Part shown: positions 8,196 to 15,113 of the stretch, piece by piece
Numbering within the stretch: position 1 is the first letter of the stretch
How the letters are laid out: the number at the start of each line of letters is the position of its first letter
IMG/VR virus record: IMGVR_UViG_3300043410_000211
Coordinates: 1-25,950 of that record
Origin: a virus
Length of the DNA: 25,950 bases
Reading direction: 5' to 3' (one strand)
The notes under the pieces: generated by a model
Told to the model about the DNA's origin: nothing
The model's database searches: none
The model's input: the letters and a program-made list of their open reading frames with translations, nothing else
Position numbers and translations under genes: made by a program

Positions 8196-9371
8196 ATGGC
8201 GACCATCGTTTTACGAACAGTTAAAGGTTCTCCTCTCACAAATACTGAAGTTGATAATAACTTTAGTAATTTAAACACCGAATTAGGTACAAAACTAGCA
8301 TCTGCGGATTATACAGCGTCCGATGTTTTAACCAAGTTAAAAACAGTTGATGGTTCTTCTTCTGGTTTAGATGCTGATTTGTTGGATGGACTAAACACTT
8401 CTTCTACACTTCCAGTTGCAACAGATAAAAGTTCTGTTGTTACCAGAGATTCTACTGGTAACGTTGGGTTAAACGCATTAACTCTTGCTGGTGCATTATC
8501 AGGTACTAGTGGTGCATTCAGTGGAAACCTTAGTGTTGGTTCTATCAGCATTAGTGGTGGATCTATTCCAGTTAGTGTTGGTGGTACAGGTGCCACTACT
8601 GCTTCTGCAGCAAGAACTAATTTGGGACTTGCCATCGGAACTGATGTTCAAGCGTATGATGTTGAATTAGCTGCAATTGCTGGACTAACTTCAGCTGCAG
8701 ATAAGATTCCTTACTATACTGGTTCTGGTACAGCTGCCCTTGCAGATTTCACTTCTTATACTAGAACTCTAACTGCAGCTGCCAATGCTTCTGCAGCAAG
8801 AACTGTTTTAGGGTTAGTGATTGGTACTGATGTTCAACCATATGATGCTGACTTATCTGGGTTCTCTGGATTATCAACGAATGGTATGGTTGTAAGAACA
8901 TCAAATGGTGCTATTACAACAAGAGCTATCACTGGAGTTGTTGGTGATATTGATGTGACTAACGGAGATGGTGTTGCTGGTGCTCCAGCTTTATCTGTTG
9001 GTGCGAATATTCCAAGATTAGCGTCAAATAACACATTCGCAGGAACAACAAACACGTTCGTTGACATAGTTGCTACTTCTGTTCAGACATCATCAGACGA
9101 AAGACTTAAAGAGAACATCGAAACACTAAATAATGCTGTTGACACTGTATGTAAATTACGTGGTGTTTCATATACAAGAAATAATAAACCAGAGATTGGT
9201 GTTGTTGCTCAAGAAGTAGAATTGGTTCTACCTCAAGTTGTAGGAACTGATGAATCTGGTTATAAATCTGTTGCTTATGCTAATATGGTTGGTGTTTTAA
9301 TCGAAGCAATTAAAGAGCAACAACAAACCATTAAAGAATTAACTACTCGTTTAGAAAAATTGGAGAAATAA
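8196..9371 (+). CDS. Tail fibre protein with S74-type C-terminal chaperone
   Basis: The protein has 391 residues and a ribosome site AAGGGA seven bases before ATG. The first 290 residues are Gly/Ser/Thr/Ala-rich fibre sequence, with two related units containing AARTNLGL / AARTVLGL and IGTDVQ.YD (about 8608-8660 and 8791-8850). Residues from about 294 form an S74 (endosialidase-type) intramolecular chaperone: [11 protein letters not shown], then a [12 protein letters not shown] segment and a C-terminal trimerising helix. In that family the domain guides trimer folding and then cuts itself off before the Ser of S-D-x-R-x-K; here Ser300 and Lys305 are both kept, so autocleavage should be intact. 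The Asn-Cys-rich gene starts two bases after its stop. A receptor-binding or accessory fibre role is inferred. Confidence 0.85.
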
Positions 9372-9372
9372 T

Positions 9373-9741
9373 ATGGCAGTTTCTGCAACTGGATTTAAGA
9401 TTTCAAGTGGAACAGACCTAAATGGTGTGTTCTGGGGATGGCAGGGTGATACTGGTAACCGCAACGTGACAGACAGTAACGGTAACTGTGGATGGAACTG
9501 CGCATGTAATGCATGTAATAGTAACTGTAACTGTAACTGTGGCAACTGCGACGCTGCAGATTTATCAATAAACGTACACGTAACTGATTGGCGTTTGAAT
9601 GTCTTCCGTAACACTTCATACGCAGATGGTGTTCGTCACGACTCTCAAGATCAATCTATGGGGCACTTTAAATTCTATCGAACAAATTGTAACTGTAATT
9701 GTAACTGTAATTGTAACTGTGCTTGCGATTGTAACTGCTAA
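9373..9741 (+). CDS. Asn-Cys repeat protein, candidate radical SAM substrate
   Basis: The 122-aa protein has 17 cysteines, all in two blocks. Block 1 (residues 39-59) has Cys at 39, 43, 45, 48, 52, 54, 56 and 59. Block 2 (106-122) has Cys at every second residue, nine in total, separated by Asn, Ala or Asp; the last residue is Cys. Between them residues 60-104 are Cys-free and look beta-rich (INVHVTDWRLNVF). The opening ATGFKISSGTDLNGVF resembles short motifs I associate with phage tail-associated proteins, so it may be a virion anchor. GGAG lies seven bases before the ATG. Alternating Cys in an extended strand would face one side, suiting metal binding or thioether/disulfide ladders. A SPASM radical SAM gene follows 1 kb downstream. 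A peptide-precursor role is inference; a metal-binding or disulfide-bonded structural protein is the alternative. Confidence 0.8.
   Translation: MAVSATGFKISSGTDLNGVFWGWQGDTGNRNVTDSNGNCGWNCACNACNSNCNCNCGNCDAADLSINVHVTDWRLNVFRNTSYADGVRHDSQDQSMGHFKFYRTNCNCNCNCNCNCACDCNC
9523..9540 (+). repeat. Hexamer tandem repeat AACTGT x3
   Basis: Three perfect in-frame copies of AACTGT encode three Asn-Cys pairs in cysteine block 1. In-frame slippage would change the number of Cys residues without breaking the frame. Confidence 0.9.
9685..9720 (+). repeat. 12-bp tandem repeat AATTGTAACTGT x3
   Basis: Three perfect copies encode six Asn-Cys pairs. Alternate Asn codons (AAT/AAC) keep a 12-bp rather than 6-bp period. 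The tract is followed by GCTTGC GATTGT AACTGC and the stop, so the coding sequence ends on the repeat. Confidence 0.92.
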
Positions 9742-9752
9742 AGGTATAAAAT

Positions 9753-10643
9753 ATGTTTAAACTAATTAAAACACCGATTCTTAGTCTTGAAGGTAGAGAA
9801 GAAATTGGTATTAATAACAATTATAGAACTACTATGGGATACAATACAGCAACTAAACAAATTAAAGTTTCTGTAGATAAAGTAGTTCGCCCAGATTTAA
9901 CTCGTGATGAAGATGTAGAACTTTCTTATGACAACGTTGACGAGAGATTTTTCAGTGTTTCAGATTTTCCAAAAAATTATGATTCATCCTTTTGGTTCGT
10001 TGACTTTGATGTAACAACAGAAAAGATTATTGGACCGATTGAAATGACTGATTTCATAACATCATTAAATCTACCAGCAAAGGGTGCTCCTCACTGGAAT
10101 AGAACTGTTGCTACAAGATATAATAGTAACTTATTACCATGTTTTTCTTTAGGTATTTTTGATAAAGACTCAGTTGACTTCAACCAAGCTATGTTAATAT
10201 TCCATATCGTCAATGCTCCTGGAGCTTATGGAGATACAGTTCTTGAGAATGAAGCTGAGCTAATGACTAATCAAGAACGCATCGATTGGTATACAACTGT
10301 TAAACCAGATATTACTTTTGATTTATTAGACTCAGAAGGTAATGTTGATAGCTCAGCTGTATTCACCAAAGAATACCCATGCCATTATAAAGTTCAACTA
10401 GCACATTCTGATGTGTATAACTTTAAATTTAATTTCAATAAAGAAAATTTCCCTACTGTTGTTAATACATACGAAGTTGTAACTGTTAATTGTACAACAA
10501 ATAAAAATAGAATTAGTTCTGCTAATGGAAGTTCTAATTTAACAATTACTAGTTCTGGATTAACTGCTGGAGATTACATTAAGGTTAAATTGACTGCTGG
10601 AAGATATCTTTCTTATGCAGAACTTTGGATTGAAATAGTTTAA
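9753..10643 (+). CDS. Unknown 296-aa protein between Cys-rich gene and terminator
   Basis: I do not recognise this protein. It starts at an ATG with AAGG eight bases upstream, 11 bases after the Cys-rich gene, and is the last gene before a strong terminator, so the two are probably co-transcribed. It has no signal peptide, no membrane segment and no catalytic motif that I can name. The first 200 residues are a mixed, aromatic-rich domain (SSFWFVDFDV, GAPHWNRTVATRYNSN). The last 90 residues look like a beta-sandwich, with Thr/Asn/Ser-rich strands ending in GRYLSYAELWIEIV, as in carbohydrate-binding or fibre-tip domains. A tail-associated role, possibly joined to the Cys-rich protein, is inferred from position only. 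Confidence 0.75.
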   Translation: MFKLIKTPILSLEGREEIGINNNYRTTMGYNTATKQIKVSVDKVVRPDLTRDEDVELSYDNVDERFFSVSDFPKNYDSSFWFVDFDVTTEKIIGPIEMTDFITSLNLPAKGAPHWNRTVATRYNSNLLPCFSLGIFDKDSVDFNQAMLIFHIVNAPGAYGDTVLENEAELMTNQERIDWYTTVKPDITFDLLDSEGNVDSSAVFTKEYPCHYKVQLAHSDVYNFKFNFNKENFPTVVNTYEVVTVNCTTNKNRISSANGSSNLTITSSGLTAGDYIKVKLTAGRYLSYAELWIEIV

Positions 10644-10709: not shown

Positions 10710-12179
10710 ATGAGTGCTTATAAACTAGTCCTACAAGGGGCTAATGATGTGAAACAAATTATGATATATGATCCAATTACATCAGAGATGTATTGGGAAG
10801 AAACTCTAGAACGACCAGATTTACAACATATTAGTAATGGTCTTCAATACGATTTCACAACTAAAGTGTGGACACCAGCTAACGTAACTAATCCACATGA
10901 TCCAGCATTACATGGAAAGAAATCGGCAACTCCAAAAACTATTAAAATTACAATGGGATTGAAGTGTAATTATGCTTGCTCATATTGTAATCAAGCACAT
11001 CAACCACATGACCCAGTTGGTGGACCAGAAGATGCTGAGGAATTAATTCAAAAAATTAAAACCAATTTTAATTTCACTACATATGATAGATTTAGATTAG
11101 AATTTTGGGGTGGTGAACCATTAGTATATTGGAAAACTTTAAAACCATTAGCTGAGAAAGTTCGTAAAGTTTATCCTAACGCATCTTTTAATATTGTTAC
11201 CAATGGTTCTCTTTTTGATAGAGATAAGATTGATTGGTTTAATCAAATGGGTTTCTCTATCGGTATGTCTCATGATGGTCCATTACACGCTCAGAATCGT
11301 GGTCCAGACCCATTAGATGAACCAAAGGCAAAAGATGCTGTTGTTTATGCTCTTAAAACTTTGGGAAAAATGAGATTCGGATTTAACGCTGTATTAACTA
11401 GAGAAAATGTATCTTTAGTTGCAGTTAGGAATTTCATTTTAGACAAATTAAATAGAGTTGATTTTGGATATGAACACGTTGACGTTAGTCAAATGGAAAT
11501 ACATGTTACAACAGAAGAATTAATGTTACCGTATGACGATTCTGGAATGGCTCATTCTATACAGACGTCTGATGAGAAAAAAGAAATTCTACACTCATTA
11601 TACTGGGAAACAATTAATAATGACAATGCCTTTAGTATGACCATTCATAGTAAGATTAAGTCTTTCTTCGAATCAATTGTTTATAAACGTCCAGCAGAAG
11701 TTCTTGGTCAAAAATGTGGTATGGATAGAGAAGATAATATTGCTATTGATATGAAAGGTAACGTAACTACTTGCCAAAACACTTCTTCTTTAACTAAGCA
11801 TAATTTAGGTAATATTGAACAATTAGAAGATGTTAGATTAACTAATTCTTATCATTGGTCAACACGCTCAGAGTGTCCTTCTTGTCCAGTCGTTCAGTTA
11901 TGTCAGGGTGCGTGTTTGTTCTTAGAAGATCAATATTGGGAACAGGCTTGCGAAAACTTATATTGGTATAACTTGGCCATGTTGGCTTCTTGTTTATTCA
12001 TTATGACAGATGGTTTAATTCTAGTTGAAATTCAAGGAGATAAGATTAGATATGATGGTATCAAGTCTCAACCAGTTATTGATATAGATTTCGTTAAAAC
12101 TGGTGGTAAACAAAAATCTTGGAAAGTTAGAAAACCAATTAACATTCCAGTAGTTCAAGTTCCAACAGTTCCACAATAA
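10710..12179 (+). CDS. Radical SAM / SPASM-domain enzyme, putative peptide-modifying
   Basis: The 489-aa enzyme has the radical SAM cluster motif C86-x3-C90-x2-C93 (CNYACSYC), which binds the 4Fe-4S cluster that cleaves S-adenosylmethionine. It also has the GGEP motif at 134-137 and a SPASM-type C-terminal domain with Cys 336, 355, 389, 392, 398, 402 and 414, enough for auxiliary Fe-S clusters. The architecture matches anaerobic sulfatase-maturase-like and RiPP-maturing enzymes, which act on cysteine, serine or other peptide side chains. An unrecognised N-terminal segment of about 75 residues precedes the barrel and a tail of about 60 follows. AAGGA precedes the ATG and the next gene overlaps its stop. 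No sulfatase is visible in the window, so the Cys-rich protein at 9373-9741 is the obvious candidate substrate; that pairing is inference. Confidence 0.9.
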   Translation: MSAYKLVLQGANDVKQIMIYDPITSEMYWEETLERPDLQHISNGLQYDFTTKVWTPANVTNPHDPALHGKKSATPKTIKITMGLKCNYACSYCNQAHQPHDPVGGPEDAEELIQKIKTNFNFTTYDRFRLEFWGGEPLVYWKTLKPLAEKVRKVYPNASFNIVTNGSLFDRDKIDWFNQMGFSIGMSHDGPLHAQNRGPDPLDEPKAKDAVVYALKTLGKMRFGFNAVLTRENVSLVAVRNFILDKLNRVDFGYEHVDVSQMEIHVTTEELMLPYDDSGMAHSIQTSDEKKEILHSLYWETINNDNAFSMTIHSKIKSFFESIVYKRPAEVLGQKCGMDREDNIAIDMKGNVTTCQNTSSLTKHNLGNIEQLEDVRLTNSYHWSTRSECPSCPVVQLCQGACLFLEDQYWEQACENLYWYNLAMLASCLFIMTDGLILVEIQGDKIRYDGIKSQPVIDIDFVKTGGKQKSWKVRKPINIPVVQVPTVPQ

Positions 12180-12502: not shown

Positions 12503-13450
12503 ATGGAACAAAAACACGTAAAGTGGGTCATTGCTCACGAACCAATCGGTTTGTTCTTAAAAGTCGCTGAGAGATTTGCTAAAGAAGTTAATGAGCAAAC
12601 TGGTGGTAAATTCAATATCGAAGTTCTTTCATTATCTGATTATTCTACAAAATATAATGAAGGTAAGAAAATCACTAAAGACGCTTTAATGGAATTAGTT
12701 GATTCTGGTAAAATTGAAATGAGTCATATCTACACTACTTGGTTGGCTGATTATAATAAAGACCTACATGCGTTAGATCTTCCATTCCTGTTCCGTGACC
12801 ACGCTCATGCTGACGCAGTTTTAGAAGGTGAGATTGGTACTGAATTATTAGCTGGTGTATCTAAGCAGTCAAACATCAAAGCCATGTCTTTCACTTATTC
12901 AGGTGGATATCGTGTTGTTCCAGCTAACTTCCGTGCTGATACAGTAGAAGCATGGAAAGGTCGTACTGTTCGTACATCACGCTCTCCAGTTGCCGTTGAA
13001 ACTTTCAAGTTACTTGGCGCAGAACCAAAAGAGCACATTGCATTAGAAGAAATGAACGCAGCTGCTAAGGCTGGCGAAATTGAAGCTGGCGAATCTACTT
13101 ATGTTCGTGTATTCCCACTACAACAGAATGAAGCATTCAGCGTTGTTAACGATACAGCTCATAGCTTATTCTTAACTTCTATTATTGTTAATCAAGATTT
13201 CTTTAAACAGTTCGATGCTGAAACTCAAGAGATTTTGTCTACTGCTGCATTTAATGCTGCTCGTGCAGAACGTCGCGAGTCAGTTGCTGATATTCCAAAC
13301 ATCTTAGCTGAATGCGAAGCTAAAGGTGTTGAGGTTGTTAAAATGTCTGCTGAACAAGAAATTAAATTCAAAGAAATCACTTATTCTGTTTATGAAAAAT
13401 TTGCTGATTATTTCACTCCAGGATTGGTACAAAAGATTCAACTACATTAA
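12503..13450 (+). CDS. DctP-like TRAP solute-binding protein without signal peptide
   Basis: The 315-aa protein matches the fold pattern of the periplasmic DctP/TRAP solute receptors: DLPFLFRDHAHADAVLEGE (92-110) is close to the family's DLPFLF signature, and RTVRTSRSPVAVETFKLLGA (154-173) is the segment that normally carries the Arg contacting the ligand carboxylate (probably Arg157). Family members carry an N-terminal export signal; here the mature domain begins almost at once (MEQKHVKWVIAHEPIGLF) with no hydrophobic core, so it should stay in the cytoplasm or enter the virion. No TRAP membrane subunits are encoded nearby. The ribosome site AAAGGAG is strong, and the gene ends just before a terminator. 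Codon use looks like its neighbours. The ligand and role are unknown. Confidence 0.85.
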   Translation: MEQKHVKWVIAHEPIGLFLKVAERFAKEVNEQTGGKFNIEVLSLSDYSTKYNEGKKITKDALMELVDSGKIEMSHIYTTWLADYNKDLHALDLPFLFRDHAHADAVLEGEIGTELLAGVSKQSNIKAMSFTYSGGYRVVPANFRADTVEAWKGRTVRTSRSPVAVETFKLLGAEPKEHIALEEMNAAAKAGEIEAGESTYVRVFPLQQNEAFSVVNDTAHSLFLTSIIVNQDFFKQFDAETQEILSTAAFNAARAERRESVADIPNILAECEAKGVEVVKMSAEQEIKFKEITYSVYEKFADYFTPGLVQKIQLH

Positions 13451-13462
13451 TTGTAATTGACG

Positions 13463-13469
13463 CTAAATA
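13463..13469 (+). promoter_or_regulatory. Putative late promoter variant CTAAATA before the PP-loop gene
   Basis: CGCTAAATA precedes the terminator hairpin and overlaps its first base, 39 bases before the ATG at 13508. The same nine bases occur on the minus strand at 15172-15180 upstream of the oppositely oriented gene. The arrangement matches that at 10660. Confidence 0.4.
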
Positions 13470-13494
13470 ATTGGGAGCTTCGGCTCCCAATTTT
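13469..13494 (+). terminator. Rho-independent terminator after the DctP-like gene
   Basis: A perfect 10-bp stem (AATTGGGAGC / GCTCCCAATT) is closed by a stable TTCG tetraloop and followed by a short T run. It ends the rSAM / 107-aa / DctP-like unit. Confidence 0.92.
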
Positions 13495-13507
13495 CATTGA
13501 GGATATT

Positions 13508-14533
13508 ATGAAACAAATTTTACATTACAATGTGTTCACAGTTCCATCACTAATAGAAAAAGATGATGCCAGTGTAATTCCATATATTAAGAATAAAGAA
13601 GTATTTTCCATTTACAGAAAATACAACATGGACACAATGAATTTTGTGTATGATAGAACTGGTAATGTTCCTCACTATTTAAACGTAAAACCAGATTTAT
13701 TTGCGATACCGAATTCGCCGACATTTAATAAATCGTTTGAACAGATTGTAGAAGAACGAGCAAAAGAATTATTATCGTATAATAAACCGATTAATGTTGT
13801 TTGGAGCGGTGGTATTGATAGCACGTTGGCTTTATTTTCTTTATTAAAATTCGCCAATGACCCAAAACAAATAACAGTATATGGAACATACAGTTCTATA
13901 TTAGAATCTGGTAATATGTTTGATAAAAATATATTACCGACTGGGTGTAATTATAGAATTAGAGTTGCATCCAAAAAAGAATTTGAAGATGAAGACTGTA
14001 TTTATGTTACTGGTTTTATGGGTAATCAGTTATTCGGACCTACAGACGATTTTTCTAAAAACTCTAAAGTGACATTATTTCATCACCAATTTAATTCTGA
14101 TGATATTTTAGATCCATATGAAAAATGTATTAATGAAGAATTGCTATCTTTTTTAAAACCAGCCATTGACGCTTCTCCAAAAAAGATTGAAACAGTTAGA
14201 GATTTAAGATGGTATTTCATTTTCAATTTTGACTGGTATACAGCTAAATTTGACGCCATGGTTAATACAAAAAATTGGAATAAAGTTCACCACTTTTTTG
14301 ATACGGAAGATTTTCAAAAATATGCTGTTACGACTAAAGAACCCTTTACTAAAATTAAAGGCGATTCCTTAACCCATAGATGGGTAATGCGAGAATTGAT
14401 TGAGGATTATAGTGGAAATAGTCACTATGCTTGGAATAAAACAAAAGGGGTTTCGAGTCTTAGTAACTCAAACCCCTCTTGGATGTTTCTATTAGATGAT
14501 TATTCTATTCTGTATAACCAACCAAAACGTTGA
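13508..14533 (+). CDS. PP-loop (asparagine-synthase-like) ATP pyrophosphatase
   Basis: I chose the ATG at 13508 (341 aa) with GAGG five bases upstream; a longer in-frame TTG start at 13457 would translate through the terminator hairpin and is unlikely. Residues 96-106 (INVVWSGGIDS-T) form the PP-loop SGGxDS signature that binds ATP and adenylates a carboxyl or carbonyl group, as in asparagine synthetase, argininosuccinate synthase or tRNA thiolases. There is no N-terminal Cys2 glutaminase domain, so it is not a complete AsnB-type enzyme; ammonia or another nucleophile would be needed. The N-terminal 90 residues and the C-terminal 150 are not recognised. The last 29 bases overlap the end of the convergent minus-strand gene. 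Peptide amide or ring-forming chemistry (as in lasso-peptide cyclases) is possible but unproven. Confidence 0.8.
   Translation: MKQILHYNVFTVPSLIEKDDASVIPYIKNKEVFSIYRKYNMDTMNFVYDRTGNVPHYLNVKPDLFAIPNSPTFNKSFEQIVEERAKELLSYNKPINVVWSGGIDSTLALFSLLKFANDPKQITVYGTYSSILESGNMFDKNILPTGCNYRIRVASKKEFEDEDCIYVTGFMGNQLFGPTDDFSKNSKVTLFHHQFNSDDILDPYEKCINEELLSFLKPAIDASPKKIETVRDLRWYFIFNFDWYTAKFDAMVNTKNWNKVHHFFDTEDFQKYAVTTKEPFTKIKGDSLTHRWVMRELIEDYSGNSHYAWNKTKGVSSLSNSNPSWMFLLDDYSILYNQPKR
14434..14477 (-). terminator. Terminator of the minus-strand gene, inside the convergent CDS
   Basis: Read on the minus strand, AGGGGTTT and AAACCCCT arms plus inner GAGT/ACTC pairs with a one-base bulge form a hairpin (14446-14477), followed by TTTTGTTTTAT. 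It lies 28 bases past the stop at 14505 and within the coding end of the PP-loop gene. On the plus strand the downstream side is not T-rich, so it should act mainly on minus-strand transcripts. Confidence 0.75.
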
Positions 14534-15113
14534 AAGTTACATATGCTTCGTTACCCAAGTTTGTTTCAACATAACGTTGTAAATAACCTGGAGTTACAAT
14601 AATTTCACTTTCGATTGCTTGAACGTAGAAGTATGTTCCAATCAATCCTTGCGAAACCTTTTGACGAATTGTTTGGACAGCACCACGTGGGTCTACGAAA
14701 TATGTAGACGGGATGTATTCTCTACCATTTAACACGAATGTGAATACTAATGATGAGTTCTCATAAGCGTGTACTGGAATGTGTTCTCTTGGTTGTTGGA
14801 ACATAATATTAGAACCAAGAATTACTGGAATTTTTTCGTTTTCTACAACTTCTGGCAATTTAGAACAAATGTCAAAAATTGCTTGTTTGATAACAGAAAC
14901 GAATTCTTCGTCTAATGATAAGACATCTCTTTCGTCTTGAGAAGAAGAAAGTTTTCCAGCAGCGTCAATTAGTTGTTGTTTAATGTCTTCATGACGTTTA
15001 TTGTCGAACATAAACAAAGTTGTCGGAAACAAGTGTTTTTCAAATGTTTGTTCGACCAGAGGTAGTGCCTCAGTTGTAATAGTACCATTTTGTGGGGATT
15101 GTGTGGTTTCCAT
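14505..15113 (-). CDS. Cupin/2OG-oxygenase-like protein, active site uncertain
   Basis: The 202-aa protein is the only gene on this strand. GGAG lies five bases before its ATG, and it has its own TATAAATA box upstream and terminator downstream. The second half looks like a double-stranded beta-helix resembling the putative 2OG-Fe(II) oxygenases (TIGR02466-like) common in T4-like marine phages: HIPVHAYENSSLVFTFVLNG (111-130), a VDPRGA turn (140-145) and VTPGYLQRYVETN (173-185) where the family usually has a distal metal-binding His. That His is replaced here, and the first motif is not a clean HxD/E. The protein may therefore be inactive, use other ligands, or be a non-catalytic cupin. The N-terminal 90 residues are helical. 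The substrate is unknown and the fold call is moderate. Confidence 0.7.
   Translation of the reverse strand: METTQSPQNGTITTEALPLVEQTFEKHLFPTTLFMFDNKRHEDIKQQLIDAAGKLSSSQDERDVLSLDEEFVSVIKQAIFDICSKLPEVVENEKIPVILGSNIMFQQPREHIPVHAYENSSLVFTFVLNGREYIPSTYFVDPRGAVQTIRQKVSQGLIGTYFYVQAIESEIIVTPGYLQRYVETNLGNEAYVTFNVLVGYTE

Follow-up and report, generated by a model that had tools for sequence, protein, structure and literature searches.

A radical-SAM/SPASM enzyme probably tailors a C-terminal cysteine ladder on phage tail-fibre proteins

A ladder of alternating cysteines at the C-terminus of a small phage protein marks a widespread phage system, in which ladders with invariant Cys, borne by unrelated carriers that include tail-fibre and collagen-like proteins, are linked to one family of radical-SAM (rSAM)/SPASM enzymes with conserved cluster Cys. 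The window (the whole stretch of DNA that was analysed, 25,950 bases) is an IMG/VR virus record representing a tailed-phage fragment, in which baseplate and structural genes are followed by a 391-aa S74 tail-fibre protein and the ladder gene. We propose that the ladder would tag the C-terminus of a phage tail (fibre) protein as a substrate, and that the phage-encoded radical-SAM/SPASM enzyme, two genes downstream, would modify it post-translationally. The most likely product would be thioether bonds that join the sulfur of the ladder Cys to carbons, in the backbone or in side chains, of adjacent residues or sister strands, and these would lock the end of the (usually trimeric) fibre into a hard cap. 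Overall, we consider it probable that the enzyme tailors the C-terminal ladder of a tail-fibre protein, with thioethers as the leading candidate for the chemistry. The relevant features of the window are:

8196..9371, plus strand: tail-fibre protein with an S74 chaperone and no ladder of its own, directly upstream of the ladder ORF
9373..9741, plus strand: ladder protein, 122 aa, proposed substrate of the rSAM enzyme (ORF, relatives, alignment)
9487..9549, plus strand: block 1, inner Cys/Asn-rich block, C39-C59, with C39, C43, C45, C54 and C59 invariant in 19 members
9685..9738, plus strand: block 2, the C-terminal ladder NCNCNCNCNCNCACDCNC, all of its Cys invariant in 19 members
9753..10643, plus strand: c2, the second component, 296 aa, beta-rich, of no known family (family profile E 3e-6)
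10710..12179, plus strand: radical-SAM/SPASM enzyme, 489 aa, proposed maturase (Pfam, NCBIfam, PHROGs, alignment)
10965..10988, plus strand: CxxxCxxC of the radical-SAM cluster (C86, C90, C93), invariant in 18/18
11715..11951, plus strand: SPASM domain with seven invariant Cys (C336-C414) and no eighth (structure comparison, alignment)
14505..15113, minus strand: c3, 2OG-Fe(II) oxygenase-like (c3 profile E 3.9e-6; weak match to Pfam PF13759)

The ladder ORF (9373-9741, plus strand, 122 aa) ends in ...RTNCNCNCNCNCNCACDCNC*, and in block 2 a Cys occupies every second residue nine times (C106-C122, 9688-9738), the last residue of the protein being Cys. When the residues of the protein were shuffled 200,000 times, an alternating run of eight Cys came up once and one of nine never. 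The nine-Cys ladder that a sequence-only reading of this DNA had described is confirmed. The DNA repeats given in that reading (12 bp x3 in block 2, 6 bp x3 in block 1) were recovered by TRF as a 12-mer in 3.0 perfect copies at 9685-9720 and a 6-mer in 3.3 perfect copies at 9521-9540. Its picture of Cys alternating with Asn holds for the Cys, found at every second residue, but not fully for the Asn, as the residues in between include one Ala and one Asp. An AlphaFold model of the ladder protein (19 sequences) had a mean pLDDT of 40.6 and was uninformative.

The sequence-only reading had further suggested that repeat slippage, which would stay in frame, alters the number of Cys and may make the ladder vary in length between strains. 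Slippage as the main cause was rejected on the lengths and codons of 19 aligned members (the window and 18 relatives), in none of which any ladder Cys of the window is replaced. Sixteen of these members have a nine-Cys ladder, one has 10 Cys and two have 11, and slippage is not supported because nine Cys are kept in 16/19; third-position changes in the relatives' ladder codons (TGT/TGC, AAT/AAC) also disrupt the perfect DNA repeats. Comparison of the 16 nine-Cys members (120 pairs) gave 417 synonymous and 0 nonsynonymous differences in the ladder Cys codons; these differences are synonymous only, and therefore selection acts on the protein and not on the DNA repeat. Where the ladder does vary, it is at the Asn positions and not at Cys (the residue preceding a ladder Cys is Asn 133 times, Ala 36, Asp 4, Gln 2 and Thr 1 in the 19 members). 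The predicted length variation is nearly absent from these close members but does appear more widely, with 3-10 Cys over 85 carriers and 25-27 in three others. None of the 19 members keeps the length of the ladder with its Cys replaced. A scan of viral contigs with the ladder protein returned 12 loci, with the whole ladder in 11 and a contig end cutting the twelfth; since 11 viral contigs carry the whole ladder, an assembly artefact is unlikely and this worry could be dismissed. Overall, the data support the earlier suggestion that the Cys ladder of this phage has a function, for which cross-links and metal binding are candidates; the rSAM gene, which supplies the decisive context, lay beyond what that reading could see.

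The enzyme matches Pfam PF04055 and the NCBIfam SPASM model TIGR04085, both above their cut-offs. The SPASM motif is CX9-15GX4C - CX2CX5CX3C - C, and with both GX4C and CX2CX5CX3C present the family belongs to the radical-SAM/SPASM enzymes. Across 18 sequences exactly ten Cys never vary: three belong to the radical-SAM cluster and seven to SPASM. The best curated models for the window enzyme are peptide or protein maturases (PapB, 5e-21; DynA; sulfatase maturase; Nif11), with SCIFF and the Cys-rich CcpM ranked lower and all of them far below their cut-offs. It falls outside the PapB family (NF047865; 75 bits against a 340-bit cut-off) and outside the anaerobic sulfatase maturases (anSME, TIGR03942; 66 bits against a 349-bit cut-off), whose extra SPASM Cys it lacks. 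The nearest solved structures include anSME and CteB; the extra Cys of anSME, soon after the first SPASM Cys, is a non-Cys residue in the phage enzyme family and is absent in CteB too. The phrog_1802 profile matches the window enzyme at E 3e-64 and also matched 3/3 further enzymes tested. No Pfam match to an RRE/PqqD domain was found in the window enzyme up to E = 1, a search that a diverged RRE could escape.

Thioether formation is our first choice of product because the enzyme has three plus seven Cys without an eighth, as CteB does, and because of the open site of CteB and the spacing tolerance of PapB. The CteB study describes an open site at its Aux I cluster, which is occupied by a leader Cys and not by the linked Cys (PMC6231123); this occupancy counts against the proposal. 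The PapB work describes Cys joined to Asp at spacings of zero to six (PMC9413430). No acceptor rule is proven, because the residue before a ladder Cys varies (mostly Asn, otherwise Asp, Ala, Gln, Tyr, Arg and others). We give the thioether, a reasoned guess from these likenesses, an even chance of being the product.

The association between ladder and enzyme is strong. Relatives of the window enzyme by sequence were found at 19 viral loci, with a ladder gene upstream in 17; one of the other two has 0.3 kb of upstream sequence, and L031, a close relative of the window rSAM, has no ladder within its 1.8 kb upstream. To sample the enzyme side more broadly, an alignment (A1) of 18 diverse enzymes was used, and the best 80 of at least 583 viral-contig relatives were taken. 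Among these best 80, a ladder ORF of at least 4 Cys is found in 57 of the 64 loci whose upstream sequence extends for 4 kb or more. This threshold misses 3-Cys and Ala-Cys ladders, which were counted separately; shorter or Ala-Cys ladder ends are present in five of the remaining seven, bringing the count to 62/64. Over all 80 loci of this best-80 set, 77 ladder ORFs lie on the enzyme strand and 0 on the opposite strand. A second, more divergent alignment gave 567 matches, and the best 80, after leaving out L048, L080 and L087 (already in the earlier set), made up a sample of 77 loci. In this best-80 sample a ladder of at least 3 Cys is found in 51 of 63 loci with at least 4 kb upstream (opposite strand, 6), and Ala-Cys or similar ladders were seen by eye in six of the other 12, giving 57/63. 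No ladder was found in 2/64 and 6/63 of the viral loci with at least 4 kb upstream in the first and second samples, respectively; the two must not be summed, because contigs recur between them, and they are not fully independent of the hypothesis, because the query alignments were built from ladder-linked rSAMs.

Further support for the association is provided by sampling from the ladder side. The pattern NCxCxCNCxC occurs in at least 120 stretches of viral contigs, and of 120 records in which the rSAM profile was sought 36 contain it (10/40, 15/50 and 11/30). Under a fixed rule that counts C-terminal or Hint-linked ladder ORFs, 34 of the 120 records listed have both ladder and rSAM, 12 the ladder only, 2 the rSAM only and 72 neither (Fisher p 2e-17, a value that is too small because the records are related). 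Three of the 12 ladder-only records (L103, L115, L154) hold window-type ladders without an enzyme in the record, and we read the other nine as low-complexity or antisense sequence. Both rSAM-only records (L064, L093) do contain ladders, which fail the rule only because they lie more than 25 residues from the ORF end. Among 34 rSAM cluster representatives a ladder is present in 29/29 with at least 2 kb upstream, a figure that mixes ladder-found and enzyme-found loci, so that the enzyme-selected samples are preferred. In the latter a putative maturase gene adjoins the gene of a Cys-rich candidate substrate, as in RiPP systems, and it is very probable that the rSAM enzyme acts on the ladder. At three loci (L109, L110, L117) a second, shorter rSAM-like ORF lies just upstream of the main one, with one TGA inside each matched stretch.

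The best named-phage matches to the window enzyme are the cultured Achromobacter phages JWF and 2-1 (37% identity), and JWF (two records) and 2-1 are the only named phages with the core enzyme. Their tail protein two genes before the rSAM gene carries NCNCDCNCNCSC / NCNCDCNCSC, and the last Cys of this ladder is the first residue of a Hint domain (a Pfam match for JWF). This arrangement pointed to the ladder as the partner of the enzyme beyond the window family. The ladder protein and c2 had no tblastn match in the named phages, and no ladder was found in 12.4 kb of Campylobacter phage CP220, one of 15 Campylobacter rSAM records among 25. In 399 Burkholderiales genomes a related enzyme was found at E <= 1e-40 in seven. 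In the three best of these, ladder, c2 and c3 are present in order; near the four weaker ones, some of them amid chromosomal-looking genes, there is no ladder. The link is thus a property of the core family and does not extend to every related enzyme. One bacterial contig (L379, G235:C5) has at least two rSAM genes of the ladder-linked kind, a third rSAM-like gene by eye and a c2-like gene, and no ladder was found there. In cellular genomes the ladder pattern occurs at at least 118 loci, mostly microsatellites or chance-looking matches, and among the loci examined an rSAM match was found only in L257, in L262 and on the contig of L163. Short DNA repeats reading as Asn-Cys were noted in bacteria, many of them Burkholderiales (L194, L198, L199, L215, L219, L226, L255, L266, L267), with no ladder-type rSAM in the locus sequence.

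The proteins that carry ladders range from 67 to 691 aa, and those tested match tail-fibre PHROGs, collagen repeats or nothing. Clustered by their bodies, 117 carrier ORFs form 15 groups, and no similarity was detected from one group to another at E <= 1e-5. Antisense ORFs make up two of these groups; the largest, with 92 of the 117, is probably joined by fibre repeats. The terminal ladders of 85 distinct carriers number 3-10 Cys and mostly end a few residues from the stop codon; a ladder Cys is preceded by Asn in 299/413 cases, then by Asp (54) and Ala (34), with Gln, Tyr, Arg and others also found. Three consecutive ladder genes occur in some phages, and some carriers are small (67-140 aa), some are Cys-rich throughout, and some lie 4-9 bases from the rSAM gene. 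Three loci (L419, L426 and L420) have 27, 25 and 25 ladder Cys with mostly Lys between them. These long ladders are on small fibre-like ORFs (L419:951-1745, L420:1790-2515, L426:490-1227), in two of which an S74 chaperone follows.

In several carriers with an internal ladder, the domain that follows is of a self-removing kind. The ladder is followed by Trp and then S74 in L419 and L426, and by Phe-Trp and then S74 in L093, the Pfam match beginning in all three at the first Ser of S74. A Hint or Hint-like domain follows in JWF, 2-1, L083, L163 (weak match) and L410, and Hint-like starts were seen by eye in L346, L414 and L416. Hint domains cleave at their first residue. S74 domains in phages are described as trimerising the fibre and then cleaving themselves off (PMC8326128). 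Self-removal of S74 or Hint would leave the ladder at the mature C-terminus, and the order of the domains suggests that it is exposed in this way. The carrier is likely to be a virion tip, and from the carriers we infer a mechanical role for the ladder as a fibre-end cap. In our view it is evenly poised whether a portable C-terminal (Asn/Asp/Ala/Lys)-Cys ladder, set on unrelated fibres and brought to the end by a stop codon, by S74 or by a Hint domain, becomes a covalent virion cap through cross-linking by the rSAM enzyme.

Other genes recur around the enzyme. The c2 family (about 240-340 aa) lies beside it in 23/34 rSAM cluster representatives, and among six genes compared in 12 window relatives c2 is conserved least (25-41% identity, against 71-82% for the enzyme and 56-87% for the DctP and PP-loop neighbours); such fast divergence would suit a receptor-binding protein, which is a guess. 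Its AlphaFold model (pLDDT 62) is beta-rich, with a C-terminal part that looks like a beta-sandwich by eye, and a Foldseek search against the PDB gave no significant match (best E 0.04). JWF gp029 was considered as a c2 homologue, and this was not supported. The c3 gene is near the enzyme in 14/34 cluster representatives and in the window lies on the other strand from the rSAM gene. The window also encodes a DctP-type TRAP solute-binding protein (12503-13450, plus strand; Pfam 1.5e-42), here in a phage, which is near the rSAM gene in 11/12 relatives at 75-87% identity and starts without an obvious signal peptide by eye. It is followed by a PP-loop ATPase-like gene (13457-14533, plus strand) with an SGGIDS motif by eye and weak QueC-like and asparagine-synthase matches, syntenic in 11/12 relatives. 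Judged by eye, L011 (8104-9623), L324, L031 (2-415) and L279 have fatty-acid-desaturase-like ORFs close to the ladder and rSAM genes or between the two.

Several other explanations were weighed against tailoring by thioethers. The rSAM enzyme may modify the ladder by other chemistry (formylglycine, thio-oxazole-like products, epimerisation of alternate residues, or C-C or C-O cross-links), perhaps assisted by the 2OG-Fe(II) oxygenase. Strict alternation would fit a modification of alternate residues, anSME and other maturases score about equal to thioether formers, and the oxygenase-like gene accompanies the enzyme in 14/34 representatives; however, the phage family lacks the extra SPASM Cys of anSME, and it is Cys that stays invariant, as a thioether donor should, which leaves this chemistry a modest chance. 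A slimmer one attaches to the idea that metal or Fe-S clusters are bound by the ladder at the end of the fibre, in the manner of the T4 gp37 His-x-His iron needle but through Cys, with the rSAM serving another step. The geometry (every second residue) and the class of location equal those of the tail-fibre HxH motifs, as these are presented in PMC11705849. Collagen and S74 carriers also suggest trimers, but a metal site would leave unexplained why one SPASM family tracks the ladder across unrelated carriers. To our knowledge, moreover, HxH fibres need no radical-SAM enzyme, which we counted against metal binding.

It is very improbable that the ladder gene encodes a diffusible RiPP (a toxin, signal or exclusion factor) and not a part of the virion. 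The carriers of 67-140 aa, those that are Cys-rich throughout and those within 4-9 bases of the rSAM gene would suit such a product, but others are tail-fibre or collagen-like proteins of 300-691 aa, and no transporter or protease gene was noticed among the recurrent neighbours. The carriers, at 67-691 aa and with many tail fibres and a C-terminal ladder among them, are not short leader-core precursors. The lack of an evident leader in them, and of an RRE/PqqD match in the enzyme (Pfam, E up to 1), counts against our own proposal of a RiPP-like maturation of fibre tips. Finally, next to no chance is left for a functionless low-complexity DNA repeat or assembly artefact, already refuted for the window locus. 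Asn-Cys microsatellites are indeed found in cellular genomes (at least 118 matches, 2 of them with an rSAM match in the locus), but in the phages ladder Cys show no nonsynonymous change, the repeats are broken in relatives, and strand and gene order are conserved.

Tailoring of a fibre-borne ladder would have several known parallels. Ranthipeptide and sactipeptide systems (PapA/PapB, SCIFF/CteB, AlbA, RumMC) likewise place a SPASM rSAM beside a Cys-rich substrate, and CteB shares with the phage family the missing eighth SPASM Cys. In contrast, their substrates are small leader-core peptides, whereas those of the phages are tail proteins of up to 691 aa with a C-terminal tag; the substrate motif of PapB is CX3D/E and the phage ladder CXC; and the phage enzyme has no RRE match (Pfam, E up to 1) and scores far below the family cut-offs. 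Anaerobic sulfatase maturase and QhpD are radical-SAM/SPASM enzymes that work on Cys of a whole protein, but on other substrates, and anSME has an additional SPASM Cys. The S74 autocleavage chaperone begins one or two residues after the ladder in L419, L426 and L093, but we know of no described S74 fibre with a Cys ladder before the cut, and the window's own S74 fibre has none. The His-x-His needle of T4 gp37 and its relatives, as described in PMC11705849, also has a motif at every second residue close to the tail-fibre end; unlike it, the phage ladder has Cys in place of His and a dedicated rSAM enzyme, and so falls outside the HxH class. PHROGs includes the window enzyme and three tested relatives in phrog_1802 ('radical SAM domain-containing protein') but assigns neither function nor partner, the ladder link being new here. 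Radical SAM cassettes are reported in host-recognition regions of pelagimyophages, in passages that name no substrate (PMC7029224). A literature search, with most subscription journals and preprints outside its reach, turned up no paper that connects a radical-SAM enzyme of a phage with a tail protein.

If the proposal is true, a type of post-translational chemistry hitherto described from peptide natural products and a handful of enzymes also occurs in virus particles, and radical-SAM chemistry is located where the virion meets its host. The ladder, with up to 27 Cys, would then be a part of the virion made by a radical-SAM enzyme, of which we know no earlier case. A leaderless tool for peptide stapling may also be possible, because the tag is short, C-terminal and seemingly portable and the enzymes are numerous (at least 583 viral relatives). 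A function that is testable in a cultured phage, JWF, would thereby be given to a family whose only label is 'radical SAM domain-containing protein'.
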